DNA from: a virus
Direction: 5' to 3' (one strand)
Virus record (IMG/VR): IMGVR_UViG_3300025133_000177
Location: 1 to 49,031 of that record
DNA: 49,031 bases
Shown: positions 1,396 through 17,857 of the stretch, one piece after another
How positions within the stretch are numbered: the stretch's first letter is position 1
How the letters are laid out: each line of letters begins with the position of its first letter
The notes under the pieces: model-generated
Databases searched by the model: none
Told to the model about the DNA's origin: nothing
Seen by the model: the letters and a program-made list of their open reading frames with translations, nothing else
Position numbers and translations under genes: made by a program

Positions 1396-1906
1396 CACAA
1401 AAAGATAAAAAAATTTGTCCAAGCAGGTGCTGGAAAAATATGACTTAGCGGCCCAATGCGAGCGCCGGGAGCGGGATTCAAACAATTGTTCGGGTTATGT
1501 TGCACGGGAGGTTGCCGGGCTGGAGGAGGAGATGCCGGGCACGAGTCACCGGGGAGACTCCAGCGGGTACTGCTCTGGGAGGCGAACAATTGTTCGGATT
1601 GTTTCCCCGGAGGAAGCCCGGCCCCGGCAAACCCGTTCCGACCCCGACACCTCCAGCGGTTCTGTAGACCTCCAGCGAGCCTGCACCCCGAACCCGAACA
1701 ATTTATCGGTTTATGTCCCCAGCAAGTTGAATCCCGACCCGATTCCGTGCAAAAATGGTGATAATCCCGTACAGGCGCTGGGAGGGCTATAGGAGAACCC
1801 GAACAAGTTTTCGGCTTCCCGACCCCGATTACTGACACAACCCCGCCTGAAGCCCCGATTCTGGGGGGCTACGACCCCGCCAGCCACCCCGCACGATGTT
1901 ACCCAG
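1396..1906. other. GC-rich non-coding island with five palindrome copies
   Basis: The stretch between the promoter at 1353-1395 and the end of terS is markedly richer in G and C than the flanking DNA, especially 1450-1890. It carries the CCGAACAA/TTGTTCGG element at 1486, 1590, 1694, 1799 and, just inside terS, 1946. Several long frames are open on both strands at once, which is expected of GC-rich non-coding DNA, and none has a ribosome site or a recognisable product. A short ACCCAG/CTGGGT hairpin overlaps the terS stop. Position beside terS would fit a packaging (pac) or control site; that is inference. Confidence 0.6.
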
Positions 1907-2443
1907 CTACTCTGCTGGGTTCTCGCTACAGTCAGTTATAGGGATTTGTTCGGATTTTACGGGATTTTCTGCTGGAGTTACGTCAATCATGCGATTTTTA
2001 GCACGATCCATAAATTCTTGCAGTTGTTCAACGATTTGTTCTCTGCTGAGATTATCAACGTGTTCATGTGTTACATGGCTACGGGCAACCATTAGCCCTG
2101 TTACCTTGAGTCTCAGTTCCTCGGCTTTGATGGCTGCTCCGAAGTTTCCTGCCTGCCAAGCCTCATCCCGCAGTCGTTGCATATCCCGAACAGATTTGGT
2201 TACGGACACCCCATACTTGCTTTCGAGTTCCTGCCGCATTTCTTCCATGCGTTCTTTGACTCGTGGATGATTGAGAAGCTGCACTGCTGAAACGTTCGGG
2301 TTTTTATATCCTGCTGCTCGTGCTGCTGCGGTTTGTGTCATGTCTTTGTGGATATAGTTATCCAGAAATTTCTGCTGTGGAGGAGTTAGGCGCTTTTCCC
2401 CTTTGGCTCTTTGTACCCCGACTTTTGGCATCTGCTGGCTCAA
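1907..2443 (-). CDS. terS: Terminase small subunit, 178 aa
   Basis: The N-terminal half reads RLTPPQQKFLDNYIHKDMTQ followed by TAAARAAGYKNPNVSAVQLLNHPRVKERM (residues about 18-68). This is the classic LTPKQxxF-xxYI...NATQAAxxAGY...AxxLLxNPxV pattern of Terminase_2 small subunits, a helix-turn-helix DNA-recognition domain. The middle is helical and probably drives ring assembly. It should bind the packaging site and load the large subunit (47659-49023). The start ATG at 2443 overlaps an AACCCGAATAATTTATCG copy of the dispersed element. The two terminase genes are at opposite ends of the window, which fits a circular or circularly permuted map. Confidence 0.88.
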   Translation of the reverse strand: MSQQMPKVGVQRAKGEKRLTPPQQKFLDNYIHKDMTQTAAARAAGYKNPNVSAVQLLNHPRVKERMEEMRQELESKYGVSVTKSVRDMQRLRDEAWQAGNFGAAIKAEELRLKVTGLMVARSHVTHEHVDNLSREQIVEQLQEFMDRAKNRMIDVTPAENPVKSEQIPITDCSENPAE

Positions 2444-2505
2444 CCCGAATAATTTATCGTGTTGTTAGAATAGCGCGGCTGCTCCCCCGTTGCAAGTCCA
2501 GAGAT

Positions 2506-2535
2506 TCCCAATTTGTCCCAATGCCAAAGCGTCAA
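2506..2535 (-). promoter_or_regulatory. TGGGA tandem boxes with weak promoter upstream of terS
   Basis: On the minus strand TTGACG (2535-2530) is followed by TGGGA boxes at 2520-2516 and 2510-2506, again 10 bases apart, in the position seen in the stronger promoters. The expected -10 (2512-2507) is poor, so transcription may need an activator, or the boxes may act only as an operator. Confidence 0.45.
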
Positions 2536-2560
2536 CGCGGCTTTGACAATAACGACAAGT

Positions 2561-2594
2561 GGGGGGTCTTTATATACCCCCCCTATAAGGGGGG
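2561..2594. other. G6/C7/G6 competing hairpin block
   Basis: GGGGGG (2561-2566), CCCCCCC (2577-2583) and GGGGGG (2589-2594) are separated by AT-rich spacers, so the central C-run can pair with either G-run. The block insulates the terS promoter from the TGACGT cluster. It could be a terminator or attenuator in either direction, but no clean T-run follows it. Confidence 0.5.
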
Positions 2595-2820
2595 TGACGT
2601 AGTTGACGTAAAATAACCCATTGATTTTATTGACTTATTTACGTCAAAACGGGTTTTTGACGCTGTTGACGTAAACCACATAAGTCATTGATTTCATTGA
2701 ATAAGTTACGTCAACGTCAACTACGTCAAGTTTTGACGTGGATTTTTTTGACGTAAAAAATCCTTTAAAATCAATGGGGGTGTTTTTTGTAAATTTATTT
2801 ATACTTTATGCTTGACGTAT
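2595..2820. repeat. Cluster of TGACGT (TTGACGTAA) elements; candidate origin or operator array
   Basis: TGACGT or its complement occurs at 2595, 2604, 2641, 2708, 2714, 2723, 2734, 2750 (as TTGACGTAAA 2748-2757) and 2813, with TTGACGTAAA also at 2666-2675 and the variant TGACGC at 2658. Both orientations are present. The last copy is the -35 hexamer of the promoter at 2812-2853. Between copies lies AT-rich DNA with an imperfect direct repeat, CATTGATTTYATTGA (about 2630 and 2687), and an inverted copy near 2767. An iteron-type origin and a repressor operator array are both possible. Confidence 0.75.
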
Positions 2821-2853
2821 GGGAATTGATATATTAAATATGGGAACGTCTAG
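2812..2853 (+). promoter_or_regulatory. Promoter of the first plus-strand unit
   Basis: TTGACG (2812-2817), 17 bases, TAAATA (2835-2840), then TGGGAACGTCTAG (2841-2853). The distance from the -10 to TCTAG is the same 8 bases as in the promoters at 1353-1395 and 4863-4904. TGGGA boxes lie at 2820-2824 and 2841-2845, 21 bases apart (two helical turns). The -35 is also the last TGACGT element, so binding to the array would block it. Confidence 0.7.
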
Positions 2854-2873
2854 TATTGAAAGGAGGCCATAAC

Positions 2874-3293
2874 ATGGCACAAGCAGACAAGAAAGATAAC
2901 ATTCTCCGCGATCTTCAGGGTGATTTATTTGATGAGAATCACGCAACGCGGCGCTTTTTCCGCTGTTGGTTGGATGGTTCTTATTTTGGTGAGAACGACT
3001 ATCGCCGCAATGTCCAGTATTTGCGCGATGCTTTGAAAACTCACGGCGTGGGCATTAAGCTTGAGCGCAAGATCACACCTTGGGTAATTAGTCAATTTGT
3101 TCGGTATACTGCGCATGAGGCTGATTGTTCATCTGGTTATGCTCAGAAGGTCATTGTTGAGCATTTTAATTCACTACCTAATCCGATGGAAGCTGATTTG
3201 CTTGCATCATTTACAAATGAGTTAATCGGCGATGCGCTTGATTTGATCGCTGATGATATCCGCGAACATTTAGCAGAGAAGGAGGTTGCGTGA
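2874..3293 (+). CDS. Unknown early protein, 139 aa
   Basis: I choose ATG 2874 (MAQADKKDNILRD) because a perfect AAAGGAGG lies 7 bases upstream; the in-frame ATG at 2856 lies before that site. The protein is charged and mostly helical, with a C-terminal stretch DALDLIADDIREHLAEKEVA. I do not recognise a family. It is the first gene after the TGACGT array, a typical place for an early regulator or host-takeover protein. A TTGTTCGG element lies inside it (3097-3104). Its TGA overlaps the next ATG. Confidence 0.75.
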   Translation: MAQADKKDNILRDLQGDLFDENHATRRFFRCWLDGSYFGENDYRRNVQYLRDALKTHGVGIKLERKITPWVISQFVRYTAHEADCSSGYAQKVIVEHFNSLPNPMEADLLASFTNELIGDALDLIADDIREHLAEKEVA

Positions 3294-3454
3294 TGGGTTG
3301 GATTATTGAGAACAAGAAAGACCGCGAATTGGCGTGGTCAAATTCTTGGGGTTGGTGTTCAGAATCTTTTGACACTTTCACTGATTGCGAAAAAGAAAAA
3401 CTTAATTTGCCTGTCGATGGAGAATGGCAGTCAGTATCTTGGGAGGTTGCGTGA
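3293..3454 (+). CDS. Small tryptophan-rich protein, 53 aa
   Basis: ATG 3293 overlaps the previous stop (TGATG), with GGAGGTTGCGTG just before it. The product begins MGWIIENKKDRELAWSNSWG and contains six tryptophans in 53 residues and two cysteines. It ends with the same EVA-stop as the gene before it, and the GGAGGTTGCGTGATG junction is repeated at its own end, suggesting duplication of a coupling signal. Too small to classify. Confidence 0.7.
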   Translation: MGWIIENKKDRELAWSNSWGWCSESFDTFTDCEKEKLNLPVDGEWQSVSWEVA

Positions 3455-3675
3455 TGTTTAATATTGAGAAGGGTGTTCCAGTTCCGCGTCGAGAGCCTAG
3501 AGGCCGTGAGAAGGGCGAATTGCGCTTGACGATGGAGAAGTTGGAAGTTGGCGATAGTTTTATTGTTACTGAGAAGCTTAGGTGTCAAGTTCCCAATATC
3601 GCTAGGCTAATGAAAATCGGCTACACGACCCGAAGTGTTGGTGAAGATGCGGTCAGAGTTTGGCGCTTGAGTTAG
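3454..3675 (+). CDS. Small basic protein, 73 aa
   Basis: Starts at ATG 3454 after GGAGGTTGCGTG and overlaps the previous stop. N-terminal KGVPVPRREPRGREKGELRL is followed by a short alpha/beta part with VGDSFIVTEKLRCQVPNIARLMKIGYT and VRVWRL. The MEKLEVGDSFIV segment resembles phage proteins that end in a small DNA-binding-like fold (the pattern L-VGDSxxV...A...G..F..R), but no function is assigned. Last gene of the first unit; the terminator 3698-3724 follows. Confidence 0.7.
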   Translation: MFNIEKGVPVPRREPRGREKGELRLTMEKLEVGDSFIVTEKLRCQVPNIARLMKIGYTTRSVGEDAVRVWRLS

Positions 3676-3697
3676 AAGAAAATTTGCACATTAAAGA

Positions 3698-3724
3698 GGG
3701 GGGAGATTTTATCCCCCCTTTTTT
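3698..3724 (+). terminator. Rho-independent terminator
   Basis: GGGGGGA (3698-3704) pairs with TCCCCCC (3712-3718) around a 7-base loop, followed by TTTTTT. It ends the unit of three genes that starts at 2874. Confidence 0.9.
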
Positions 3725-3729
3725 ATTGC

Positions 3730-3758
3730 TTGACATCTGGGACATTATGGGATAAGTT
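3730..3758 (+). promoter_or_regulatory. Promoter of the second plus-strand unit
   Basis: TTGACA (3730-3735), 17 bases and TAAGTT (3753-3758). TGGGA boxes at 3738-3742 and 3748-3752 lie in the spacer, 10 bases apart. It sits between the terminator at 3698-3724 and the ATG at 3785. The -10 is weak. Confidence 0.6.
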
Positions 3759-3784
3759 TATTTATCTAATGAGAAGGAGAAGTT

Positions 3785-4186
3785 ATGTATTATCTAGCAT
3801 ATGGAATGAACATGAACCGCGCCGCTATGCGGCAGCGATGTCCGAAGGCAAAGCCTATGGGCGGTTTTTACTTACCGAACTATCGGTTGATTTTTCGCGG
3901 GGTTGCTGACTTTCGCGCTGATCGTGATTGTATGTTGCCAGTTGTTGCGTGGAAGATTACGCACGATTGCTTACGCGCATTGGATCGGCTTGAGGGCTAC
4001 CCGACTTTATATGATCGTCGGTTTATCAACGGCGAGTGGTTGATCTATGACATGAACGGCAACAAGGGCGGCATTGGCAGACCTAGTGCGCATTATTACG
4101 AGATGATCAAGGACGGTTATGATGCCTTTGGCCTTGATGATTACTTTTTGCGTTCTGCGTTGCGTGATGCGGAGTTGGCAGCATGA
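3785..4186 (+). CDS. Gamma-glutamylcyclotransferase-like (AIG2-type) protein, 133 aa
   Basis: The start YLAYGMNMNRAAMRQRCP is the YGxN(M)N motif of the AIG2/gamma-glutamylcyclotransferase family, followed by LPNYRLIFRGVAD and VVAWKIT. DRLEGYP holds the expected catalytic glutamate at residue 70, and YDRRFI follows as in the family. Members release 5-oxoproline from gamma-glutamyl amines or peptides. The length is normal for a single domain. The ribosome site is AGAAGGAGAAGTT before ATG. The amidoligase at 1-300 could make the gamma-glutamyl bond that this enzyme cleaves or tailors; that link is inference. Confidence 0.8.
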   Translation: MYYLAYGMNMNRAAMRQRCPKAKPMGGFYLPNYRLIFRGVADFRADRDCMLPVVAWKITHDCLRALDRLEGYPTLYDRRFINGEWLIYDMNGNKGGIGRPSAHYYEMIKDGYDAFGLDDYFLRSALRDAELAA

Positions 4187-4377
4187 GTGTTGAGAAATTC
4201 AAGAAGCGGTTGGAAGGTTTCAACGACAACAAGATTGAAATTATTGACAATCTTTTTCGGTGTCAGGAAGAGCAGTTTGCAAGCACTTATTGGTTAGGCG
4301 AGGCGGTTAAAAGTATTGCGGGTTTACATGATCTTGTTGAGGACTTGATCAATCACATGGAAAAGGAGAAATTGTGA
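4183..4377 (+). CDS. Small helical protein, 64 aa
   Basis: ATG 4183 overlaps the previous stop (ATGA). The protein is a likely helical hairpin with charged ends (VEKFKKRLEGFNDNKIEIID and DLVEDLINHMEKEKL). No family recognised. It is coupled on both sides: its own TGA overlaps the next ATG at 4377. Confidence 0.75.
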   Translation: MSVEKFKKRLEGFNDNKIEIIDNLFRCQEEQFASTYWLGEAVKSIAGLHDLVEDLINHMEKEKL

Positions 4378-4472
4378 TGGACTGGGGAGATTTGGAGGAC
4401 TGGATTATTGCGGCTATCACGGTTGCTTTGGTAATTGTTTGGGTAGTTGGAGTTTTGAGCAGATGGTGGTAG
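4377..4472 (+). CDS. Single-span membrane microprotein, 31 aa
   Basis: ATG 4377, stop TAG 4470-4472, with AAAAGGAGAAATTGTG before the ATG and a TGATG overlap with the previous gene. After MDWGDLEDW comes a hydrophobic run IIAAITVALVIVWVVGVL, then basic SRWW. This is a plausible inner-membrane span with the N-terminus outside or an acidic cytoplasmic start. Possible roles are membrane takeover, superinfection exclusion or an antiholin; none can be shown. Confidence 0.65.
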   Translation: MDWGDLEDWIIAAITVALVIVWVVGVLSRWW

Positions 4473-4482
4473 ATTCTGACAT

Positions 4483-4596
4483 AACCCGAATAAATTAATG
4501 ACCCCTGCGATTTTCGCGGGGGTTTTTTTATTTCCCGTAACATTAACGCCAGTTTTGCTCCCAGCGGATAAGCCGAACAATTTGTCGGTTTACCTC
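4483..4596. other. Intergenic stretch with two element copies
   Basis: The 453-base gap 4473-4925 contains no gene. This first part holds AACCCGAATAAATTA (4483-4497), the terminator 4502-4529 and AGCCGAACAATTTGTCGGTTTA (around 4571-4592), a nearly full palindrome. The rest, to 4721, shows only an ACCGAACA half-site (about 4684-4691) and AT-rich DNA. Further on come the small-RNA promoter, its terminator and the promoter at 4863. Confidence 0.6.
4502..4529 (+). terminator. Rho-independent terminator
   Basis: CCCCTGCG (4502-4509) and CGCGGGGG (4515-4522) form an eight-pair stem with one G-T wobble, followed by seven T residues. An AACCCGAATAAATTA copy of the dispersed element lies between the last gene and this stem (about 4483-4497). 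Confidence 0.88.
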
Positions 4597-4721
4597 GTGG
4601 GGGCGTGTTAAGTTAAAAAATGTGGCGCATTTGGTAGCTTAACCCCGACACGGCAAACCGCGCGATTCGCCCCCAGTTGATATTACCGAACATATATTTT
4701 ATCTTCAACGGCATTTTTTTC

Positions 4722-4750
4722 TTGCGTCCCATGTTGTCCCACGCTATAAA
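4722..4750 (+). promoter_or_regulatory. Promoter of a candidate small RNA
   Basis: TTGCGT (4722-4727), 17 bases and TATAAA (4745-4750). TCCCA boxes at 4727-4731 and 4737-4741 are the TGGGA pair in reverse orientation, 10 bases apart, filling the spacer. No reading frame with a ribosome site starts downstream before the terminator at 4801-4842. Confidence 0.6.
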
Positions 4751-4756
4751 TATTTC

Positions 4757-4842
4757 ACAGAAGGGAAGTCTGTTTCCTATCTGCCTCAAAACTAGACTTG
4801 CCCCCGATACAGCACCTTTCCAATTGTATCGGGGGTTTTTTT
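4757..4842 (+). ncRNA. Candidate small non-coding RNA, about 85 nt
   Basis: The segment lies between the promoter 4722-4750 and a strong terminator, and has no gene. It contains a hairpin ACAGA-AGGGAAG-TCTGT (about 4756-4772) and an alternative pairing of AAGTCT in that hairpin with AGACTT (about 4791-4797). It ends in the terminator stem. The size and layout are those of a small regulatory RNA. The 5' end is estimated from the -10 position. No family recognised. Confidence 0.5.
4801..4842 (+). terminator. Rho-independent terminator of the candidate small RNA
   Basis: CCCCCGATAC (4801-4810) and GTATCGGGGG (4826-4835) form a perfect ten-pair stem with a 15-base loop, followed by TTTTTTT. Since the preceding gene already ends at terminator 4502-4529, this second terminator implies a transcript starting between the two. 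Confidence 0.92.
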
Positions 4843-4862
4843 GTTTTGCATAAATTTTTTTA

Positions 4863-4904
4863 TTGACATTGATAAAGGTTTGGGATATTATGGGATATGT
4901 CTAG
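4863..4904 (+). promoter_or_regulatory. Strong promoter of the third plus-strand unit
   Basis: TTGACA (4863-4868), 17 bases, TATTAT (4886-4891), then GGGATATGTCTAG to 4904. TGGGA boxes at 4881-4885 and 4891-4895 are 10 bases apart and flank the -10. This is the best match to consensus in the window and drives the gene at 4926 and probably the following genes to 8694. Confidence 0.88.
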
Positions 4905-4925
4905 CAAACAAAGGAGATTTTTATC

Positions 4926-5363
4926 ATGGGCTTAGATATGTATTTACGCGGCGACAAGTATATCGCCCGATTTGACAATTCACAGCGCGACAAAGACGGC
5001 AATGAGTTGGAGATTAAGCGTCCTGTTATTGATGGGTTCGAGGTTGCGTCTTACAATCTTGATCTTGGTTACTGGCGCAAGTTCGCGCCTTTGCATAATT
5101 ACATTGTAGATGTGTTTGCCAATAGTGTTGATGATTGTCAGGAAATTCATTTGGATTCTTCTGATTGTCACCGCATTGCCGATGCTTTGCGCAACAACGG
5201 CTTGCCCGACAACGAAGATTGCCACGGCTTTTTATTTGGCTCCCCTGAGTTATGGGATTACTACAAAGATGAGGCCGAAGAGCATGCGAAAGTTTTTGAC
5301 AAGGCTGCGGCTTGGATTGAAAGCAATTCATGGAACAGCGTAACTTATCAGGCGAGTTGGTGA
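4926..5363 (+). CDS. Conserved phage protein (GLDMYL family), 145 aa
   Basis: Starts MGLDMYLRGDKYIARF after AAAGGAGATTTTTATC. The GLDMYL opening and the later LGYWRKFAPLHNYIV are hallmarks of a widespread phage family without known activity. The middle and C-terminal parts are acidic, and the stretch CHGFLFGSPELWDYYKDEAEEHAKVFDKAAAWI follows. First gene behind the strongest promoter, so an abundant early product is expected. Confidence 0.82.
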   Translation: MGLDMYLRGDKYIARFDNSQRDKDGNELEIKRPVIDGFEVASYNLDLGYWRKFAPLHNYIVDVFANSVDDCQEIHLDSSDCHRIADALRNNGLPDNEDCHGFLFGSPELWDYYKDEAEEHAKVFDKAAAWIESNSWNSVTYQASW

Positions 5364-5364
5364 G

Positions 5365-5565
5365 ATGGACAATATCAAGTTTTACATGGAGATGTTTGGT
5401 CAGCTAAAGGGCGCGAAGATCATCGACTTTAATATGGTGCAGTGTGAGTTTGGCGATGTTTGGCCTACGTTTACAATGCGTAAGGGCAATCAAACGTTTA
5501 GTTTTGTTTTGTCTCAGGACGAGGAGGGCAATGGCGGCGGCTTTGCGTTTATCGAAAATGTGTAA
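5365..5565 (+). CDS. Small unknown protein, 66 aa
   Basis: ATG 5365 is one base after the previous stop. The product has a compact beta-rich pattern, with a phenylalanine-rich core (FTMRKGNQTFSFVLSQDEEG) and a glycine-rich turn GNGGGFAFIENV. No family recognised. The end overlaps the next gene by eight bases. Confidence 0.7.
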   Translation: MDNIKFYMEMFGQLKGAKIIDFNMVQCEFGDVWPTFTMRKGNQTFSFVLSQDEEGNGGGFAFIENV

Positions 5566-5713
5566 ATGTCCCGATTGTGATGGTGAAGGGCAGGTCGAGT
5601 ATGACTTGCCCCGACCACACGGCTTTGGTCGTGATGTTGGTTACATTGATACAGTGATGGACGACTGTGAGAATTGTTCGGGTTCTGGTGAAGTGGAGCA
5701 GGACGATGGATAA
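5558..5713 (+). CDS. DnaJ-type zinc-ribbon miniprotein, 51 aa
   Basis: I choose ATG 5558, which gives MCKCPDCDGEGQVEYD and later CENCSGSGEVEQ. The two CxxCxGxG half-sites are those of the DnaJ cysteine-rich zinc finger, here alone without a J domain. It may bind unfolded protein or act as a small zinc-dependent adaptor. There is no clear ribosome site, so translation probably depends on coupling to the previous gene. A TTGTTCGG element overlaps the second half-site codons (5674-5681). Confidence 0.7.
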   Translation: MCKCPDCDGEGQVEYDLPRPHGFGRDVGYIDTVMDDCENCSGSGEVEQDDG

Positions 5714-6119
5714 GTTTAGCGGAAGAAAATTACGTTACATTCGTGAGCAGCGAGGCGTTAGTCAATTGGAATTGTCTAAGGCTTGCGAAGTTCCACAGTC
5801 TTTGTTGTCAAAGTATGAAAGGGGGGAGGTTAAAAGCCCCCCTGCAAGTGCGGTTCAGGCTTTTGCGGATTACTTTAATGTTTCTTACGGTTATTTTTTT
5901 GGTGATGTGAACAGCATTTCTTTAGAGTTAAGTTACCCAGAAATGGGGCTTATTTTGTCTGGTTTAAAGGCTCTTAAAAAGAAAACCAAGAAAGATTATG
6001 ACCCGAATTTTGTTCCCGAAGACGGCAGCTTTGATGCGAATCTAAGTAAGTTAATTCGTTGTGACCGTCTGTTGAATAGTTTGCAGAAAATTTACCGAAA
6101 GGGGAAAGAAAATGAGTGA
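5706..6119 (+). CDS. XRE/Cro-type transcription regulator, 137 aa
   Basis: ATG 5706 (MDKFSGRKLRYIREQRG) follows GGAGCAGGACG. Residues about 5-60 form a standard XRE helix-turn-helix, LRYIREQRGVSQLELSKACE then VPQSLLSKYERGEVKSP and a closing DYFNVSYGYFFG. The C-terminal part (about 65-137) is unlike the LexA-type peptidase repressors; no catalytic serine-lysine pair is evident. It may control early promoters, either through the TGACGT array or the TGGGA boxes. The stop overlaps the next small ORF. Confidence 0.82.
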   Translation: MDKFSGRKLRYIREQRGVSQLELSKACEVPQSLLSKYERGEVKSPPASAVQAFADYFNVSYGYFFGDVNSISLELSYPEMGLILSGLKALKKKTKKDYDPNFVPEDGSFDANLSKLIRCDRLLNSLQKIYRKGKENE

Positions 6120-6180
6120 CAGGGAGATGGAAGAGCTTCTTGATGAAGTGTTTCGCAAAGTTTTTGGAAAAGATTGGTAG
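6112..6180 (+). CDS. Micro-ORF, 22 aa
   Basis: ATG 6112 is preceded by AAAGGGGAAAGAAA and overlaps the regulator stop. It reads MSDREMEELLDEVFRKVFGK then DW and stops at 6180. An amphipathic acidic-basic helix is likely. It may be a real microprotein or a coupling leader for the gene at 6191, whose ribosome site (GGGAGATAGTG) begins at its stop. Confidence 0.45.
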   Translation: MSDREMEELLDEVFRKVFGKDW

Positions 6181-6190
6181 GGAGATAGTG

Positions 6191-6517
6191 ATGCTTGAAA
6201 AAGGGAGCGAAGAGCAATTAACGCCATTGGAGCGAATGAAAGAAATGGCGAAGATTGAGAATGAAAAGATGTTAGCCAACAATGGCGGCAGACATTCTAT
6301 TGCGGGATTAAAGGGCAGGGATGGTGGCTACAGCGGTGGTAGGCCAAGCAAGGGCGTTAATGGTGTTCCCAAGCTGTCTGAGAAGGCTGAGAGGATATTG
6401 GTCTGCCTGAAGGCAGGTATGAAGGTCAAAGCCATTGCGAAAGTTGTTGGCAATTCTCATCAGGCGGTTAGTCAGATTATTGCGCGATATAATTTAAAGG
6501 AGTTAGCAGATGAGTAG
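6191..6517 (+). CDS. Helix-turn-helix protein, 108 aa
   Basis: The start ATG 6191 (MLEKGSEEQLTPLERMKEM) is chosen for the GGGAGATAGTG upstream; earlier in-frame starts overlap the micro-ORF without a site. A glycine-rich linker (GGRHSIAGLKGRDGGYSGG) leads to a C-terminal domain (about 70-105) with LKAGMKVKAIAKVVGNSHQA then VSQIIARYNL. That is a resolvase- or Trp-repressor-like helix-turn-helix. Likely a DNA-binding accessory regulator. The end overlaps the next gene by eight bases. Confidence 0.72.
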   Translation: MLEKGSEEQLTPLERMKEMAKIENEKMLANNGGRHSIAGLKGRDGGYSGGRPSKGVNGVPKLSEKAERILVCLKAGMKVKAIAKVVGNSHQAVSQIIARYNLKELADE

Positions 6518-6845
6518 CGTTGAGGATACAATGTGCATGCACTATGTTGTTGATCGTTTGAACGGCATTGTGACTGAGACTGATTTGTTGGGCTTTATTG
6601 ATGAGGTTCGGCACAACATACAAGTGAACGAAGACTGGCGGAGGTCAAATCCGCCATCATTACCCGAACAAGTGTCCGTTAATCCCGAAGACTTTGATGT
6701 TTCTACTGCTGTTGATAACATTAAGAGGGATTATGTTGAGAGGGCATTAGCCAAATCAAAGAACGTAAGCAGTGCTGCAAAGTTGTTGGGTTTAAAGAAT
6801 TATCAGACTTTGCAAAACTGGATTGATAGATTGGAGATTAAGTGA
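6510..6845 (+). CDS. Fis-type helix-turn-helix protein, 111 aa
   Basis: The C-terminal 45 residues (IKRDYVERALAKSKNVSSAA followed by KLLGLKNYQTLQNWIDRL) match the Fis family HTH_8 domain: a first helix, then AAxxLGL and a recognition helix. The N-terminal half is acidic with no recognised domain. Fis-type proteins bend DNA or activate transcription. The ribosome site AAAGGAGTTAGCAG precedes ATG 6510. A CCGAACAA element lies within it (6664-6671). Confidence 0.75.
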   Translation: MSSVEDTMCMHYVVDRLNGIVTETDLLGFIDEVRHNIQVNEDWRRSNPPSLPEQVSVNPEDFDVSTAVDNIKRDYVERALAKSKNVSSAAKLLGLKNYQTLQNWIDRLEIK

Positions 6846-7132
6846 TGGGTTTTTATAAACCAAACAAAAAGAAGGTGGCGGCGTTTAATAATGCTATTGA
6901 GCGGATGCCTGAGAACATGACAAACAATGATCTTTCTGCGTTTATTTGCGGACTTTTCAAGGTTTATGACATTAAGGGCGATCAGCGCAGGATGCTTATT
7001 CTTGGATTAGCTATGCAAGAAGACGACGACGACGATGATGATGATGATGACGATGAAGATGACGTAGGTGTTGGTGTCGAGATTGACTTTAATGACCCGA
7101 AGTTGTCAGCTATTTTTAAGGGAGGTGCATAA
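6845..7132 (+). CDS. Acidic protein with an aspartate run, 95 aa
   Basis: ATG 6845 overlaps the previous stop; a GTG one codon earlier is an alternative. A basic start (FYKPNKKKVAAFNNAI) precedes a helical middle, then eleven consecutive aspartates at about residues 60-72 encoded by GAC/GAT repeats (7022-7054), and the end EIDFNDPKLSAIFKGGA. The strongly acidic patch could mimic DNA or bind cations or basic proteins; the codon repeat also suggests slippage expansion. No family recognised. Confidence 0.7.
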   Translation: MGFYKPNKKKVAAFNNAIERMPENMTNNDLSAFICGLFKVYDIKGDQRRMLILGLAMQEDDDDDDDDDDDEDDVGVGVEIDFNDPKLSAIFKGGA

Positions 7133-7368
7133 TGGAGTTTTTTACGGCGTTGGTTTTTTACTACACGTTACAAGGTGAGCCTATGGTTTCTACAATTTGG
7201 TTTGAGACTAGGGCGCAGTGTGAGAGGGCTTTGCGCGTTGATGAGTTTATTTACGCTGTTTACCAAGACCCTCTTCATGCTCATGTTGCTTGTGACGTTA
7301 GCAAGGTTGCATCTATGTCGATCAGGCCAAAAGCGAGGCCAGAGATGTTTGCACAGGAGGGTTCTTAA
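7132..7368 (+). CDS. Small unknown protein, possibly exported, 78 aa
   Basis: ATG 7132 follows GGGAGGTGCATA. The N-terminus MEFFTALVFYYTLQGEPM is hydrophobic and the protein holds two cysteines (ARAQCERAL-type and VACDVS), a pattern seen in small phage proteins that act in or beyond the membrane. No basic N-terminal charge precedes the hydrophobic run, so export is uncertain. Stop TAA overlaps the next ATG. Confidence 0.65.
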   Translation: MEFFTALVFYYTLQGEPMVSTIWFETRAQCERALRVDEFIYAVYQDPLHAHVACDVSKVASMSIRPKARPEMFAQEGS

Positions 7369-7532
7369 TGGACGACAGGGTGTATGTTGTTCGTGATGAG
7401 GTGTGTAGGCTTCAGCGTGAGGTAGACGATGCTGAGTGGGAGGGCGATCCGCGTCTTTCTCATTTGGCTTGGGAGTTAGCTCAATTTAAAAAGTTGGAAG
7501 AAGAGGGCGTAATTTATGAGCCTAAGTTCTGA
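7368..7532 (+). CDS. Small charged protein, 54 aa
   Basis: ATG 7368 overlaps the previous TAA (TAATG), with ACAGGAGGGTTCTTA before it. The product starts MDDRVYVVRDEVCRLQREVD and is largely helical, with acidic and aromatic residues (EWEGDPRLSHLAWELAQFKK). It overlaps the next gene by 17 bases. Unclassified. Confidence 0.7.
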   Translation: MDDRVYVVRDEVCRLQREVDDAEWEGDPRLSHLAWELAQFKKLEEEGVIYEPKF

Positions 7533-7722
7533 AAAAGTGGAGGAGGTCGTTAGTGACCTCCTTCAAAACTTACCCGAACATGTTTCTATTTCTGACATGC
7601 GCAATTTGGTTTGCGAACTTTTGTTCGGTTTAGGTTTGCACCCAGACGACCTGCCGATTTTTTTGTTGACGGTTGTTGATGCTTATATGGGTGATCGTAG
7701 AGTTGATATGTTACGAGAATGA
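7516..7722 (+). CDS. Small helical protein, 68 aa
   Basis: ATG 7516 lies inside the end of the previous gene, behind GAAGAGGGCGTAATTT. The product reads VEEVVSDLLQNLPEHVSISD, then MRNLVCELLFGLGLHPDDLP and a hydrophobic end IFLLTVVDAYMGD. No family recognised. A TTGTTCGG element overlaps the LFGLG codons (7621-7628). An AACCCGAATAA copy lies directly after the stop (about 7728-7738). Confidence 0.68.
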   Translation: MSLSSEKVEEVVSDLLQNLPEHVSISDMRNLVCELLFGLGLHPDDLPIFLLTVVDAYMGDRRVDMLRE

Positions 7723-7758
7723 TGATATAACCCGAATAAGTTTAGTTTGGAGATTGCT

Positions 7759-8694
7759 ATGTCTTACGGGAATGATTCATTTAGAAGGTTTGCTCTTCAA
7801 AAAGCTCGTTCTGGAGTTCCGACTTCACCACCATCTCAACTTGGATTGGGGTTTCTGTCTCATCCCTCTTTGATGGGTAATTCAATTTCACCAGAACAAA
7901 TTAGACAGAATCAGGCTTTCCGAGGGCGTGGGCCTTCTATGTTTGGTCAAAGTAAAATGACATATAATCGCGCTATGGGCCGCAAAATGCAGCAAGACAT
8001 GAAATCGCCAGAAGAGCAGGCGATGATTGATGCGGCGATAGCCGCAGGCCCGACAGACCCATCAATGAATACTTCTGGCCCTGCTGAACATCAGAGTCGA
8101 ATCAATGCAGCGTTAAAAGCACGCTCTCAACCCGCTAATCCGTTTGAGGGCAACGAGCAGTATCAGGCGTTGATGGAATATCAGCAGAGCCTAGCACCGA
8201 GCCAAGAGCAGCAAGCGCGTTTGCAAGAGTTACGTTCGGCTTTTGAAGGTACGGGTGGATATAAAGATTACCGTATTAATCAGTTGCAGAACCAGTTTCA
8301 GCAGCGACAGCGCAATCCGATGATGGGTATGGGATTGGGTGGTATGCGTCCGATAGGAATGCAGCCGTATCAGGGATTTGGTAGGCCACAGCAGTTCTCA
8401 ATGCAGCAGCCTATGCGTCAGCCGATGCCTATGCAGCAGCCAATGAGACAGTTCGGCGCTATGGGATACAATCAGCCACAGCAGAATCCCTATCAGCAGC
8501 AGCAATACGGTATGATGGGTGGTTATCAGCAGAATCCCTATCAGCAGATGCGTCCGCAGCCACAGCAGTTTGGTGGTTATGGAATGGGACAAAGCATGGG
8601 TGGATACGGCGGTTACGGCGGTATGTCGAATCCTTACCAGCCCCAGCAGATGGGTTCATACAACCCGAATAATTCTATGGGTTATCTTCAATAA
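7759..8694 (+). CDS. Prion-like low-complexity protein, 311 aa
   Basis: ATG 7759 (MSYGNDSFRRFALQKARSG) follows TTTGGAGATTGCT; the TTG at 7747 precedes that site. Residues to about 175 are of ordinary composition with helical, Q-rich parts. From about 175 to the end the sequence is almost only Q, M, G, P, Y, N and R, in repeats such as QQPMRQPMPMQQPMRQ, NPYQQQQYGMMGGYQQNPYQ and GGYGGYGG. That composition is typical of intrinsically disordered, condensate-forming domains. It is the last plus-strand gene and its end overlaps the convergent gene 8675-8932 by 20 bases. A structural or assembly role is equally possible. Confidence 0.75.
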   Translation: MSYGNDSFRRFALQKARSGVPTSPPSQLGLGFLSHPSLMGNSISPEQIRQNQAFRGRGPSMFGQSKMTYNRAMGRKMQQDMKSPEEQAMIDAAIAAGPTDPSMNTSGPAEHQSRINAALKARSQPANPFEGNEQYQALMEYQQSLAPSQEQQARLQELRSAFEGTGGYKDYRINQLQNQFQQRQRNPMMGMGLGGMRPIGMQPYQGFGRPQQFSMQQPMRQPMPMQQPMRQFGAMGYNQPQQNPYQQQQYGMMGGYQQNPYQQMRPQPQQFGGYGMGQSMGGYGGYGGMSNPYQPQQMGSYNPNNSMGYLQ

Positions 8695-8932
8695 CTAACT
8701 TGCAAGCGTCACATTTTCTTTGTGACTCGTTTAATGTCTTTAATGGTATGTTACACTTAGGGCATTGATTTGCCTCTAATTTTTTTTGGAAATCGCCTTC
8801 TTCTTGAAGCTTAATAAGATTCATTTTGTTCTCCCAAGGCGCGGTTCTTAACGTCACCTTCATGTTTCCATTTGCTATTTTTCTTTTATAGCCCTGCATT
8901 TCCTTTTCTGCTGCTGACCACCTTTTTGCCAT
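8675..8932 (-). CDS. Zinc-ribbon protein, 85 aa
   Basis: MAKRWSAAEKEMQGYKRKIA leads to a charged helical region and a C-terminal zinc ribbon, CPKC at about residue 58 and CDAC at about 74. ATG 8932 follows TCGGGAGAAA. Small zinc-ribbon proteins in phage replication regions often bind nucleic acid or host polymerase. It is the last gene of the minus-strand replication unit and converges on the plus-strand unit. Confidence 0.72.
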   Translation of the reverse strand: MAKRWSAAEKEMQGYKRKIANGNMKVTLRTAPWENKMNLIKLQEEGDFQKKLEANQCPKCNIPLKTLNESQRKCDACKLVIEDNP

Positions 8933-9092
8933 TTTCTCCCGACTCCATTTTTCTTACGAGCATTTCCAATAGTGCTTGAAGCTCTTCTACTTGTTGCTTG
9001 ATTATTTGATCTGAACGAGCGGCGGCATCTTGTTTCATCCAAGACATCCGCCGCTCCATTCTTCTTATTATTTTTGCGGATTCTATGTCCAC
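8886..9092 (-). CDS. Small coiled-coil protein, 68 aa
   Basis: I start at GTG 9092 (VDIESAKIIRRMERRMSWMK), which has AAAGGAAATGCACG upstream; longer versions have no site. A heptad-like stretch follows (QIIKQQVEELQALLEMLVRKMESG), so a short coiled coil is likely. It overlaps both neighbours: 10 bases with the gene at 9083 and 47 with the gene at 8675. The alternative ATG frame behind the same site has a less protein-like composition. Confidence 0.5.
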   Translation of the reverse strand: MDIESAKIIRRMERRMSWMKQDAAARSDQIIKQQVEELQALLEMLVRKMESGENGKKVVSSRKGNAGL

Positions 9093-9310
9093 CGTGCATT
9101 TCCTTTCAAAACAACTGCGGGTCCGACAATCCCTGTCCCGCAAATTTTTGTTGCTTCTTCATTGAAAGGAAGTCCGTCTAACAGCCCCTCTTCATTTACA
9201 AGAACTTGGATATCTGGGTTAGTCGGAGAATGAACCATTTCGACTAATCCACCCACAAGCTTCTGAACTTTTTCAAGTGTTGGCTTTTTATCTTCAAATG
9301 TATGAATCAT
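9083..9310 (-). CDS. DUF3846-like phage protein, 75 aa
   Basis: The product reads LEKVQKLVGGLVEMVHSPTN, then NEEGLLDGLPFNEEATKI and GTGIVGPAVVLKG. This is the pattern LVGGxxE.., NEEGxLxGLPxN.., GxIVGPxVV of DUF3846, a common small phage protein of unknown function. ATG 9310 follows AAAAAAAGGAGACAAAC. It is the first gene after the terminator 9372-9404 and has its own candidate promoter. Confidence 0.82.
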   Translation of the reverse strand: MIHTFEDKKPTLEKVQKLVGGLVEMVHSPTNPDIQVLVNEEGLLDGLPFNEEATKICGTGIVGPAVVLKGNARWT

Positions 9311-9340
9311 GTTTGTCTCCTTTTTTTACATAGACTGGGA

Positions 9341-9369
9341 CTTGTACCATATAATCCCGTACCCTGCAA
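9341..9369 (-). promoter_or_regulatory. Candidate promoter for the DUF3846 unit
   Basis: On the minus strand TTGCAG (9369-9364) is followed after 17 bases by TACAAG (9346-9341). The spacer ends CGGGATTATATGG, a degenerate form of the TGGGA pair, and GTCTATG follows downstream. Weak on its own. Confidence 0.35.
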
Positions 9370-9371
9370 GC

Positions 9372-9404
9372 AAAAAGGTTAACCGGGGAGGCCCGGTAGT
9401 TAAC
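9372..9404 (-). terminator. Probable terminator after the primase-helicase gene
   Basis: GTTAACCGGG (9378-9387) and its complement in 9392-9404 form a stem with a three-base bulge. On the minus strand it is followed by TTTTT (9376-9372). A CCGAACAA element (9413-9420) lies between the gene end and the stem. Confidence 0.55.
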
Positions 9405-9429
9405 TTTATAACCCGAACAAATTATCGGC

Positions 9430-11655
9430 TTACATGCTATCGCGCCCGGTAACGGGTTCATATGTCCCGTTGGATAGCGGCCCATTTGGAACTCCGAGGT
9501 ATTTAAGAGGTCCGCTTGGGGTCAATCTGTACTTATTAACCAGACCTTGCTGCATGGCTTTGGTCACTGTGTTTTTAACTGTTGTTGGTTTGACTTGTTG
9601 AATTGCTATGATGCAAGGCTCATTTGGCTCTAATCCGTTGGCTGTATTCCAAACGCCATCATGCACACCTTCGATTGTAACTGCCAATCCTTGCGCTTCA
9701 CGCATACGGATATAATCAACAACATGCGCCAAGCGTTCTCTGACGGTGGAAGACATTGCAATAGCTTGAATATCTACGCTTCGATCTTCTAGTAGACCCG
9801 TGTTTGGGTTACGAATGAAATGCCTGATTTCACGATTGGCAGGTCCATTCGATTTCACAACAGCGCCATCGAACGCGGCATTTCGTGCGTATGGTATGTT
9901 TAAATCCTTACACCTTTGCCTACCTGTGCTTTCATCTATTTGCCACACTGAGAAGGCAGAGCGAACGCCGTCAACGATAGCGGATGTGCCTCTGATTTTA
10001 TTACGAGCCTCCTCTGGTGTGGAGATTGGCTCTTTGGCATCCACTTTTGACATGTGGTGGTTAACCATGACAGTTGCACCTGTTTCGGTTGCCATCTGCG
10101 CGAGAAGCCCCATGAATGCAGCACCTGCCGCTGGATCAGCGTTTACATCAGCGTGAACAAACGATGCCATTGGGTCGATTACCACTAGCCGCAAGTTATC
10201 TAATTCAAGCATTTGATCATATATCCGAGAGAACTCATCGCCCATGACATATGAATTGTCGAACTTTTGCATGATTGGGAACACGCCGCCCAAGTTAGGC
10301 AACGGTAAAATCCTCAGTTTGTGATCATAATGTTCACGATAATTCAGGGGATCAAGTCGAGTGATCCTGCGGTGCATTTCATCTTTATCATCTTCCGCAG
10401 TCAGAATAATCGCATCTCCATGCTCTGCTACAAGACCGCCAAAAGCGTTTTGCATAGATGCTCCAGACGCTACTTTCATGGCAAGGTCGAGTGTCATCAT
10501 GCCTTTGCCGCTATCCCCTGCTGCCGCAAATACCACTGGAACACCTAGCGGCATTGTGTCTCCAATGAGAAACTTTTGCTCTGGTGCGCTGCCGACAAAG
10601 TATTTGTCGATAAGCAAGCTATCATCTAAAAGAGATATCGGCTTTTTTACTTTATTTTCATGGCCTTTGATGAACTTCTTTATGTTGAATTCTTCTTCGA
10701 CAGCATCTGCTGCGTCCCACTTTTCAGGCTTTGTTGATGGGATTTGAAGCATGAGCGTTGATTTTGCACCCACGGCTTTTGCTTGTGCTTCAACAATCCT
10801 TGCAAGTTTTTTCCCCGCATCATCGTGATCAGGCCATAGGATTACTTCTTTGTTGCGCAGAGGTGTGAAGTCGAACTTTGATGCTGTATTTTCGGACAGC
10901 ATTCCCGCGCCACCAATTGTGCATGTTGCAGCGTATCCTAGCTGACTAAGAGCATCTGCGCATTTTTCACCTTCAACCCAAATAACCTTGTCTGATCCAA
11001 GTATATTGGGTATGTTATAAAGAGGTCTGGGTTCGGGTAAACCTTGGCTTCCATTCATAAACTGGCGGAACTGTTTTTTTGGTTTTCCTGTTCCATCCCG
11101 AACAATTTCGCCAGTTGCATCTCTTTCAAAGTATTTTCTAACAGTAACGAGAACTTGACCGTCCTCATCTGTATAGTCGTACTCTTCTTCAAACGGAGTG
11201 CTTGGCCCAATGTTTGCTTTCACAGGCTTTTGTTCGGGTTTGATAAAGCCATTTGTGGCAGTTGTGTTCGTAACCTTAAAGTTTTCTGGCTTGTTCAGCT
11301 TGACAATGTTCTCTGGTTGCGGCGCTAGGTTTTTGGGCAGATATTCAGAGAAGTATTCTGCTGTTTCCGCGAGTGTCCACCCACGGCCCTCTTTCATAAT
11401 CTTGCTGATACCACCTACGCCATCACCTGACTCAAAGTCTTTACCGCTCAGAAACCAAGGGCTATTGATGTCAATGTTTATGCGAAGCGACTGACCTTTT
11501 TCCCCACGCAATGAACCTAGCATGAAATCATTGCCGCGACGAATCCCATTCGGGAAGGTTTCTAGTAGAGCGCGTAGCTGAACTTCCCTTGGGACTTCGC
11601 TTGAAATCCTTTCAGCTACCTCCCTTGATGTCTTGCCAAATTGTAAAATATTCAT
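9430..11655 (-). CDS. Primase-helicase: Toprim domain plus RepA/DnaB-like ATPase, 741 aa
   Basis: I start at ATG 11655 (MNILQFGKTSREVAERISSE), which has AGGGACAAGATA upstream; the TTG at 11673 precedes that site. The N-terminal part is a CHC2-less primase-like region. Near residues 220-300 is a Toprim domain (VIWVEGEKCADALSQLGY, then GGAGM and VILWPDHDDAGKK). Near 370-560 is a RecA-fold ATPase with a variant Walker A (AAAGDSGKGMMT) and Walker B-like LRLVVIDPMASF, as in RepA/DnaB-type phage helicases. The C-terminus is a winged-helix-like region. It should unwind and prime phage DNA at the fork. CCGAACAA/TTGTTCGG elements lie inside it at 11098 and 11230. Confidence 0.85.
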   Translation of the reverse strand: MNILQFGKTSREVAERISSEVPREVQLRALLETFPNGIRRGNDFMLGSLRGEKGQSLRINIDINSPWFLSGKDFESGDGVGGISKIMKEGRGWTLAETAEYFSEYLPKNLAPQPENIVKLNKPENFKVTNTTATNGFIKPEQKPVKANIGPSTPFEEEYDYTDEDGQVLVTVRKYFERDATGEIVRDGTGKPKKQFRQFMNGSQGLPEPRPLYNIPNILGSDKVIWVEGEKCADALSQLGYAATCTIGGAGMLSENTASKFDFTPLRNKEVILWPDHDDAGKKLARIVEAQAKAVGAKSTLMLQIPSTKPEKWDAADAVEEEFNIKKFIKGHENKVKKPISLLDDSLLIDKYFVGSAPEQKFLIGDTMPLGVPVVFAAAGDSGKGMMTLDLAMKVASGASMQNAFGGLVAEHGDAIILTAEDDKDEMHRRITRLDPLNYREHYDHKLRILPLPNLGGVFPIMQKFDNSYVMGDEFSRIYDQMLELDNLRLVVIDPMASFVHADVNADPAAGAAFMGLLAQMATETGATVMVNHHMSKVDAKEPISTPEEARNKIRGTSAIVDGVRSAFSVWQIDESTGRQRCKDLNIPYARNAAFDGAVVKSNGPANREIRHFIRNPNTGLLEDRSVDIQAIAMSSTVRERLAHVVDYIRMREAQGLAVTIEGVHDGVWNTANGLEPNEPCIIAIQQVKPTTVKNTVTKAMQQGLVNKYRLTPSGPLKYLGVPNGPLSNGTYEPVTGRDSM

Positions 11656-15935: not shown

Positions 15936-16797
15936 TTTGTGCCTCCTCTTCGCTAGAGTTTTGAGTTGCAGGATCAACAAATGTTAAGTCCTTTGAGTCT
16001 GGAGAGACACTAGACATCTTTTCCATCAGTTTGCCAAGATGTGGCTCTTCCAAAGTTTCGAGGCGACCAGAGCGATCTTTTGCAGGGTAGCCCCATTCAT
16101 TCAATGGCTGACAAATAAATGCACGATACTGACCGTGATCACCTGACAGGATTGCCATTGTAATTACTTCGTCAACAATTCCGGGCAATTCACGCCCTGT
16201 CTTGCTGCCTTCGATTTGAAGCGCGTATTGCTTGCGCCCATAATCATCTGTGATTTCATCAAGAATGCCAACAAAAATCACATTCTTTGTGCGGATGTGC
16301 TGAAGGTGTGTAAGCCACGACATCATTTCACGTCCGTGCATTCCGTATGCTGCGCGTGTGTCTAGCTTTCCAGACCGCTCAGACCGCGCCTCTGGTTGCT
16401 GCAAACACCATTGAAAGCACAAACGTCCTGCTACAGTAATGGAGTCAACAAAAAGAGTATCGAACTTTCTCCAAACCTCTTCACTGTCGCCAAACATTTG
16501 AGCGACATAATCATAATGCGCTTGGCTGTATGGCTGATCTTCTGAAAGAGATGGATTTGGCCCACCTAAGAAGCAAGCCAAGTCGCGGCACTCTGTCCAT
16601 GTACGCGGACGGATAACATCAATCGGGTATCCTTCGATGGCGGCATCCCCTGCTTCCAAGTCCATAAACAGTGTGGTTTCTGGATTAAGCGTTCTAGCAA
16701 GTGTGGTTTTACCCACACCGCTTGCGCCACACACCACAATCTTGTGGCCTTTTTTCTCAGCCAAACGTTGATCGGCTGTGATAATTTGCAAAGCCAT
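15928..16797 (-). CDS. Sak4-like RecA-fold recombinase ATPase, 289 aa
   Basis: Walker A GASGVGKT is at residues 24-31 and the Walker B LFVDSI lies near 115. The sequence around NVIFVGILDEITDDYGRKQYALQIEGSKT resembles the Sak4 (AAA-type) family of phage single-strand annealing proteins. It should promote annealing with help from the SSB-like protein next door. ATG 16797 follows AGGAGGATGAATA; the last codons overlap the SSB-like start. The C-terminal 40 residues are acidic and probably flexible. Confidence 0.82.
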   Translation of the reverse strand: MALQIITADQRLAEKKGHKIVVCGASGVGKTTLARTLNPETTLFMDLEAGDAAIEGYPIDVIRPRTWTECRDLACFLGGPNPSLSEDQPYSQAHYDYVAQMFGDSEEVWRKFDTLFVDSITVAGRLCFQWCLQQPEARSERSGKLDTRAAYGMHGREMMSWLTHLQHIRTKNVIFVGILDEITDDYGRKQYALQIEGSKTGRELPGIVDEVITMAILSGDHGQYRAFICQPLNEWGYPAKDRSGRLETLEEPHLGKLMEKMSSVSPDSKDLTFVDPATQNSSEEEAQSA

Positions 16798-17195
16798 TAT
16801 TCATCCTCCTCAATTGTAAACCCACCGACTTCAACGGTGCGGCAACGTTCCAAAACTTCCCTAACCGCAGGTGGCGCGGCTGTGTATTTTCGCTCATCAA
16901 CGGCAAGCGTCAGCTTCCCATAGTGACGCGCATCCTCTGGAGCCATAGCTTCCAGAACAAGACCAAGTTCATTTTGATCCCAGACCACCTTCTTGCGCAC
17001 TGTAGCCTTTAGCTTACGGTTTCCTGCTACGATGTGGGTGGTTCCAAAGTCTTTACCATCTGCGCGTAATGCGTCACACGCTTGGTTAAAGAATGTATCA
17101 TGTAGTTGCTCATCTACGCTTTTTAACTCATTACGCAGTTCACTGATAATGTTTTTGAGTTCGCTTCGACGATCAAACAGTTCACGACTATTCAT
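16797..17195 (-). CDS. Unknown recombination-unit protein, 132 aa
   Basis: An N-terminal coiled coil (residues about 3-40, ELFDRRSELKNIISELRNEL then KSVDEQLHDTFF) precedes an alpha/beta part with RKLKATVRKKVVWDQNELGL. The first gene of the recombination unit, coupled to the Sak4-like gene. Similar small coiled-coil proteins accompany Sak4 in other phages, but I cannot name a family. ATG 17195 follows GGAAAGGAATCGAC. Confidence 0.7.
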   Translation of the reverse strand: MNSRELFDRRSELKNIISELRNELKSVDEQLHDTFFNQACDALRADGKDFGTTHIVAGNRKLKATVRKKVVWDQNELGLVLEAMAPEDARHYGKLTLAVDERKYTAAPPAVREVLERCRTVEVGGFTIEEDE

Positions 17196-17231
17196 GTCGA
17201 TTCCTTTCCGCTTTAAATTTCTAGAACCTTA

Positions 17232-17260
17232 CCTATCCCACATGGTGAAGGATATGTCAA
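17232..17260 (-). promoter_or_regulatory. Promoter of the replication/recombination unit
   Basis: TTGACA (17260-17255) is followed after 17 bases by GATAGG (17237-17232). One TGGGA box (17240-17236) overlaps the -10, and TTCTAG follows (17225-17221). The -10 is poor, so this may depend on an activator. Confidence 0.5.
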
Positions 17261-17631
17261 CGACTTTTTTTGGATAAAAATATTTCTATGCCCAAGCACG
17301 CCTTCATTAATTTCTTTTTTAGTTTAAATTCAGGGGTTTCTACACCTTTGGCATCTTCAATAATTGTTTCCCAATCGCCGTTGGCATTTTCTTTCTCGTA
17401 GCGGAAGTCGGCTATGTAGGTGCAAATCTTCTGACCGTTGACCTCTAGTGCGAAACGAACCTGTAGCTCAAGGTTGCGCACCCTACCTGCACGTTCAAGG
17501 CTCTTTATATATAGATACCGCTCTGACTCCCATTTGGAGTCAAACTTAATGCCCTGCACCGTTACTTTCTTGTTTCCGTACTTGGCTCTTGACCCATGCC
17601 GTTTGGGATTATATACAGAAGAAAACGTCAT
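17257..17631 (-). CDS. DUF1064 endonuclease-like protein, 124 aa
   Basis: SRAKYGNKKVTVQGIKFDSK then WESERYLYIKSLERAGRVRN is the diagnostic FDSxxExxRYxxL(..)G.I..L pattern of DUF1064. CTYIADFRYEKENANGDWET then IIEDAKGVETPEFKLKKKLM supplies the D...E(D)xK nuclease core. The family is assigned to Holliday-junction or replication-fork endonucleases of phages. It converges on no neighbour but its 3' end overlaps the promoter -35 at 17255-17260, and the promoter of the next plus-strand gene lies inside its 5' end. Confidence 0.82.
   Translation of the reverse strand: MTFSSVYNPKRHGSRAKYGNKKVTVQGIKFDSKWESERYLYIKSLERAGRVRNLELQVRFALEVNGQKICTYIADFRYEKENANGDWETIIEDAKGVETPEFKLKKKLMKACLGIEIFLSKKSR
17589..17617 (+). 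promoter_or_regulatory. Promoter of the ribbon-helix-helix regulator
   Basis: TTGACC (17589-17594), 17 bases, TATACA (17612-17617). TGGGA boxes at 17604-17608 (spacer) and 17635-17639 (just before the start codon) are 31 bases, about three helical turns, apart. It lies within the 5' part of the opposite-strand DUF1064 gene. Confidence 0.6.
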
Positions 17632-17647
17632 TTATGGGAAAACCTCC

Positions 17648-17857
17648 ATGCCAAATCCAGTAAAGTACAAATCAGTAAGCGTTTCAATAGCAGCTTACGA
17701 TAAATTAGTAAAAATAGCGGATCATGAAGACCGTGCTATAGGTCGCCAGTTATCTCGCATGATTGATGAGTCTTATGACGATGTGCAATCGAAGGTGGCA
17801 TCTCGCTATGAAAGACGTAACAGCGTTGGCGGCATTGCTTCAGTTCTAGAAGACTAA
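17648..17857 (+). CDS. Ribbon-helix-helix (CopG/Arc-like) regulator, 69 aa
   Basis: ATG 17648 gives MPNPVKYKSVSVSIAAYDKL, then VKIADHEDRAIGRQLSRMID. A short beta-strand (KSVSVSI), a helix starting AYDKLVKIA and a second helix RAIGRQLSRMIDES match the ribbon-helix-helix fold. RHH proteins bind tandem DNA boxes one helical turn apart. This is the only plus-strand gene between 8694 and the right end, has its own promoter, and its stop overlaps the convergent stop of the gene at 17854 by three bases. It sits exactly between the early and late minus-strand blocks, a good place for an early-to-late switch; that role is inference. Ribosome site weak (ACCTCC before ATG). Confidence 0.68.
   Translation: MPNPVKYKSVSVSIAAYDKLVKIADHEDRAIGRQLSRMIDESYDDVQSKVASRYERRNSVGGIASVLED

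Follow-up and report, generated by a model that had tools for sequence, protein, structure and literature searches.

A conserved phage-encoded protein of predicted ribbon-helix-helix fold as a candidate autorepressor reading TGGGA boxes at early promoters

The proposed regulator gene, its neighbours and its predicted fold

The window, i.e. the whole stretch of DNA analysed here, spans all 49,031 b of the IMG/VR record of a marine bacterial virus. The genome is probably not complete in this record, because relatives run from 54.6 to 58.8 kb and the genes of the two window ends (1-300 and 47659-49023) are separated by about 5 kb in the relative G010. The features of the locus are listed below, where the near clade refers to the homologues with the enriched word TGGGA.

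17648-17857, plus strand: 69-aa predicted ribbon-helix-helix (RHH, Arc-like) protein, proposed repressor, ATG at 17648
17589-17617, plus strand: promoter TTGACC-N17-TATACA of the 69-aa gene (TTGACC 17589-17594; TATACA 17612-17617), within the resolvase coding region, with frozen synonymous resolvase codons
17604-17608, plus strand: box 1, the TGGGA within the promoter spacer (TGGGATTATA), which does not vary in the near clade, not even in homologues of 54-57% identity
17635-17639, plus strand: box 2, TGGGA just before the ATG, 31 bp (three helical turns) past box 1, found in most of the near clade
17257-17631, minus strand: DUF1064/Holliday-junction-resolvase-like gene whose N-terminal codons contain the regulator promoter (Pfam DUF1064 1.8e-19; PHROG 190 9.6e-35)

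The first-pass annotation had assigned the span 17589-17857 to the gene; its end and the 69 residues were retained, and its start was moved, as 17589 is the beginning of the promoter -35 and the ORF runs from 17648. A block of plus-strand genes lies at 2.8-8.7 kb of the window, and from 8.7 kb to the right end (the right 40 kb) the minus strand is tiled by long ORFs, with the 69-aa gene as the sole plus-strand gene, so that the ORF map bears out the earlier description of a lone plus-strand gene. Its neighbours are the divergent DUF1064 resolvase and, in convergent orientation, a 1021-aa protein for which no family match was found; relatives have the same neighbours. With the protein as query, a first scan of IMG/VR viral contigs returned 57 relatives (57-100% identity); with the wider alignment as query the number rose to 145, and one relative was found in a Rhodobacteraceae MAG; tblastn of INPHARED with the 69-aa protein gave no match. 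The 69-aa gene is a real and conserved gene linked to the resolvase, because it has these IMG/VR relatives and is present, in divergent orientation, at 80/80 of the closest loci of the neighbouring resolvase. The first 40 residues are near-invariant and are followed by a variable linker and a conserved tail, GIGG(I/L)xSV(I/L)ED, of which the G-x-G-x-L part is shared with the far clade described below.

The monomer was folded by AF2 with 51 sequences from three clades, and the model consists of an extended N-terminus, a helix (14-26), a turn and a second helix (31-59), with pLDDT of about 90-95 in blocks 11-40; with a shallow alignment (20 close sequences) the AF2 model was one long helix without a PDB match, and the wider alignment was required. 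The Foldseek PDB list for the model was mostly RHH (MatP, Arc, CopG, ORF56, AmrZ, CdbA, NikA, PutA, MazE6 and other antitoxins), Arc 1baz being matched with a probability of 0.97 over 37 columns at 1.7 A. No RHH fold match reached E <= 0.001, each E-value being weak, as is expected of so short a chain. Sequence comparison of the protein with Pfam, PHROGs, NCBIfam and PDB chains yielded no RHH match of significance: the best Pfam RHH_7 value was 0.13 (in 5/34 members), PHROG "Arc-like repressor" gave 0.012-0.03 for distant homologues, and there was no RHH match in NCBIfam. The filing of the protein therefore rests on fold and not on sequence. By its predicted strand-helix-helix fold it most likely belongs to the RHH (Arc/MetJ/CopG) superfamily, and on the model it is a new family within this known kind. 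The RHH assignment made in the first-pass annotation thus agrees with the predicted fold and the RHH-dominated PDB matches, and finds no significant counterpart in curated sequence families.

Many small RHH proteins are autoregulated antitoxins, as are several of the PDB fold matches, and the protein might accordingly be read as the antitoxin of a toxin-antitoxin pair. This is extremely improbable: no toxin-like partner is adjacent, the recurring neighbours being the resolvase and the 1021-aa protein, and boxes are found at many promoters besides the regulator's own. The antitoxin reading was rejected for the lack of an adjacent toxin gene.

The promoter of the 69-aa gene and the boxed promoters of the window

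The promoter TTGACC-N17-TATACA, with one TGGGA in its spacer and another before the start, is present in the sequence in all the parts that had been described earlier. It overlaps the start of the resolvase coding sequence, which runs on the opposite strand; there five of the eight conserved degenerate codons are invariant, versus 0/61 elsewhere in the gene (27 different resolvase sequences; permutation p 2e-5, a contrast within one gene, with the kinship of the sequences left in the p-value). The invariant codons TAT AAT CCC correspond to GGGATTATA, and GGG TCA to the -35 TTGACCC, while the codons between them, in the promoter spacer, do vary. Judged from this codon pattern, the promoter and box 1 are under selection at the DNA level, because the synonymous resolvase codons are frozen exactly at the promoter elements. 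Box 2 is weaker evidence than box 1; it is missing from L056/L057 and from the most divergent part of the near clade (L219, L225, L230; the 54% clade), and it could also be a Shine-Dalgarno region or part of the resolvase leader. The spacing of 31 bp between the two boxes, in the window and in the near clade, is neither the N5 nor the 10-bp spacing of the tandem boxes.

Five exact copies of TGGGA-N5-TGGGA were found in the window versus 0.10 expected from dinucleotide shuffles, and 0/100 shuffles reached five. All five are intergenic and lie at 1.3-4.9 kb. In 13 near-clade records, some of them closely related so that the counts are not independent, 32 copies were found versus 0.8 expected, and a scan of all 5-mers gave TGGGA as the top repeated 5-mer at period 10. 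The boxed sites of the window other than the regulator's own are listed below.

1354-1395, minus strand: boxed promoter TTGACA-N12-TGGGATATATTGGGATTAGTCTAG for 1187-1348 and the leftward genes
2506-2520, minus strand: tandem TGGGA-N5-TGGGA upstream of a terminase-small-subunit-like (TerS-like) ORF (1907-2443), also in G001
2812-2853, plus strand: boxed promoter for 2874-3293, boxes 21 bp apart (2820, 2841), TCTAG at 37
3730-3752, plus strand: boxed promoter for the gamma-glutamylcyclotransferase-like gene 3785-4186 (PHROG 2520 4.6e-22), boxes 8 and 18 b from TTGAC
4727-4741, minus strand: tandem box without a -35, in a conserved TAGCR-TGGGA-N5-TGGGA-YGCAAnnAAAAA element (4720-4745), also in G001, G010, G024, G028, G034 and G038
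4863-4904, plus strand: boxed promoter TTGACA-N12-TGGGATATTATGGGATATGTCTAG for 4926-5363
17221-17260, minus strand: replication-operon promoter (16797-17195 leftwards), TTGACA...TGTGGGATA...TTCTAG, with a single TGGGA box at 17236-17240

The TerS label for 1907-2443 was given from position and from the sequence by eye; in G010, tandem boxes without TTGAC are likewise found upstream of the TerS-like homologue. The replication-operon promoter also carries one or two boxes in G007, G009, G010, G024, G034 and G038, and a TTGGGA remnant in G011, G017 and G023. The element at 4720-4745, which lacks a -35, may be the promoter of a small RNA or may use the boxes in some other way.

In relatives, the two boxes of a pair flank the -10 of TTGACA promoters for early genes, and the replication operon is marked by one box or a pair. 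A typical boxed promoter reads TTGACA-N12-TGGGA-TANNNT-GGGA...TCTAG, the TCTAG being conserved near the likely transcription start (e.g. 1354-1358, 2849-2853 and 4900-4904 of the window). TTGAC lay within 30 b of 18 exact sites, at a distance of 18 b from the first box in 11 of them, while 14 further exact sites had no TTGAC within 30 b. TTGAC and TCTAG were 35-37 b apart in 38 cases, in 32 of which a box lay between them, and within this fixed core the boxes stood at 8/18, 18/28, 19/29, 8/29 or 20(/29) b, i.e. in steps of about one or two turns. The boxes thus appear to behave as an operator and not as a core promoter element, because their positions mostly shift by turns while the TTGAC...TCTAG core stays fixed. 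A rival reading makes the boxes part of the core of a promoter type peculiar to the phage, or sites of a host regulator. It would agree with their location at the -10 of TTGACA promoters and with the conservation of TCTAG as an initiation element, and is nevertheless very unlikely in view of this shift of about one turn, of the occurrence of boxes in both orientations in the pelagic clade (see below), and of a constant layout whose word changes from clade to clade.

Left-arm operons running in either direction start from boxed promoters, as do the replication operon and the regulator gene itself; no boxed promoter was tied directly to the head/tail (structural) genes. The first-pass annotation had proposed an autoregulated early-to-late switch; the autoregulatory promoter with its conserved box was upheld, whereas the switch was not, the boxed promoters being of early type or belonging to replication and to the regulator. 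A true switch, in which the RHH protein reads the boxes and activates, or does both depending on position, is an unlikely reading; the variable position of the boxes, the element at 4727 without a -35 and the ability of some RHH regulators to stimulate, e.g. AvtR (PMC5569661), speak for it, while most boxes lie across the -10 or spacer of promoters close to consensus, where a bound protein should block polymerase, and structural genes are without a directly tied box. Repression of early and middle promoters is a better fit than activation of late genes.

Two other kinds of repeat were observed in the window. A palindrome-like interspersed repeat, CCCGAACAA-T-nnTCGG, has 19 matches within two mismatches versus 0.4 expected, at 480-9430 and also at 12686, 18723, 22503, 27938, 38126 and 42949. 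The region 2595-2760, between the TerS-like gene and 2874, holds a dense TTGACGT/ACGTCAA array of inverted and direct repeats, which may be an origin or else an array for packaging or binding.

Homologues in two further clades and the candidate reader of the boxes

Distant homologues were first seen in three 58-kb relatives and in gp21 of the pelagiphage HTVC027P, and then at 51 and at least 80 further loci. The homology is reciprocal by profile (hhalign 97.6% near-far and 97.2% far-pelagic). Each clade has its own enriched word spaced at 10 bp, namely TGGGA (near), TGGGT (far) and AGGAT (pelagic), and each word occurs in the protein's own promoter. The far clade has TGGGTATAA[A/T]TGGGTAT there, a tandem word at 10 bp that is almost invariant, and it is the only clade with tandem 10-bp spacing in the own promoter. 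Further boxed promoters had been expected in the far clade; this expectation was not borne out, as tandem boxes in promoters were found at the regulator gene alone and the other four TGGGT pairs appear to lie within genes. The pelagic clade has ATCCTATAT beside the -10 of the own promoter, and the pattern TTGACN12-24TATAGGATA gave 13 matches versus 0 for the reversed pattern in 14 records, with 1/13 in the far-clade genome G026. AGGAT-N5-AGGAT was found 9 times versus 0.9 expected in the pelagic clade, a modest excess, and boxes occur there in both orientations. Within the first 50 kb of HTVC027P, ATCCTATAT has three exact copies, each of which lies at a TTGACA promoter. The words hardly cross between clades, the exception being three TGGGT pairs in the pelagic set, and the outgroup Roseophage CRP-902, which lacks the gene, had no excess of a tandem word.

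Two helix-turn-helix (HTH) proteins of the DNA-binding type, a Cro/CI-type one (5709-6119) and a Fis-like one (6510-6845), are encoded in the block with most boxes, and the Fis-like gene is present in most box-bearing near genomes. That one of these two phage proteins reads the boxes, with the RHH protein controlling only itself or something else, is quite unlikely. Cro/CI proteins usually read inverted and not direct repeats; the gene at 5709-6119 was found among the relatives in G001 only, is absent from the far-clade genomes, and was dropped as reader for its presence in a single relative. The Fis-like candidate is weakened because G031 lacks it and yet has tandem boxes, and because the far-clade genomes, whose RHH promoters have the tandem word, lack it too. 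A non-exhaustive look showed no other small regulator common to the three clades. The 69-aa protein, named earlier as the TGGGA reader, is thus supported as the best candidate, because the same layout is found in three clades with a word of their own in each, and the rival readers are missing from some of them.

Proposed mode of action and comparison with known systems

The 69-aa protein is most likely an autoregulated Arc-like RHH repressor of early and replication promoters and the candidate reader of the TGGGA boxes. We infer its binding, dimerisation, sign of control (repression) and timing as follows. RHH dimers would occupy the TGGGA boxes, with cooperative binding to pairs spaced by one turn (10 bp). 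Since the boxes cover the -10 or spacer of strong TTGACA promoters of the host type, bound dimers would obstruct RNA polymerase. At the start of infection the left-arm operons, the replication operon and the regulator gene would be transcribed by the host polymerase, and the rising protein would then shut off the boxed promoters together with its own gene, so that early and middle genes would be expressed in a timed pulse. A prophage (lysogeny) repressor was rejected since no tyrosine integrase was found: PF00589 had no match in the window or in seven relatives, records that may be incomplete, while the control matched in 14/14 genomes. The phages carrying the regulator look virulent.

Arc of phage P22 shares the predicted fold and is likewise phage-encoded and small, and its operator sites lie about one turn apart; it differs in belonging to a temperate phage and acting there at a single divergent promoter region, compared with many promoters here, and it has no significant sequence match to the protein. 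CopG, MetJ and omega are autoregulated RHH dimers on short repeats, although with a repeat spacing of about 7-9 bp, compared with 10 bp here, and with plasmid or chromosomal genes. The nearest functional parallel appears to be F55 of the Sulfolobus spindle-shaped virus SSV1, an RHH repressor acting on tandem repeats at the immediate-early promoters and at its own (PMC5569661). It resembles the present case as a small RHH protein with tandem repeats at early promoters and at its own promoter, and differs from it in that F55 belongs to an archaeal virus, maintains lysogeny and has the repeat ATAGATAG, whereas no tyrosine integrase was found here and the promoters are of the bacterial TTGACA type. 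SvtR of the Sulfolobus rod-shaped virus SIRV1 is an RHH protein that represses its own gene and has a few other sites in the viral genome (PMC5569661), in both respects as proposed here, and unlike here its sites are imperfect inverted repeats at archaeal promoters.

HTVC027P gp21 (pelagiphage MN698241) is a profile homologue with the AGGAT word in its own promoter and in three further ones; it differs in being annotated as a hypothetical protein and in having another gene neighbourhood and another word. It is somewhat more probable than otherwise that one RHH family times early expression across a large lineage of marine phages, comprising roseophage-like phages, the far clade and HTVC023P-type pelagiphages, with the tandem one-turn operator layout kept and the word rewritten between clades at all targets together. 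The repressors and their operators would then have co-evolved, and their specificities would form a series provided by nature. With a single layout and three words, the three clades are ready material for reading how RHH strands recognise DNA.

No paper on an RHH regulator in these phages was found by literature search. In the RNA-seq paper on HTVC027P all early expressed genes were of unknown function (PMC12753301), and the 69-aa protein family is a concrete candidate for part of the control of these early genes. In the same phage (17530-17718, L158) a tandem AGGAT promoter (17689-17718, minus strand) was observed just upstream of gp34-gp33, the two genes that an RNA-seq study set apart as a separate temporal cluster with high expression at 6-9 h (PMC12753301); without being proof, this timing together with the AGGAT promoter fits a pulse followed by shut-off.
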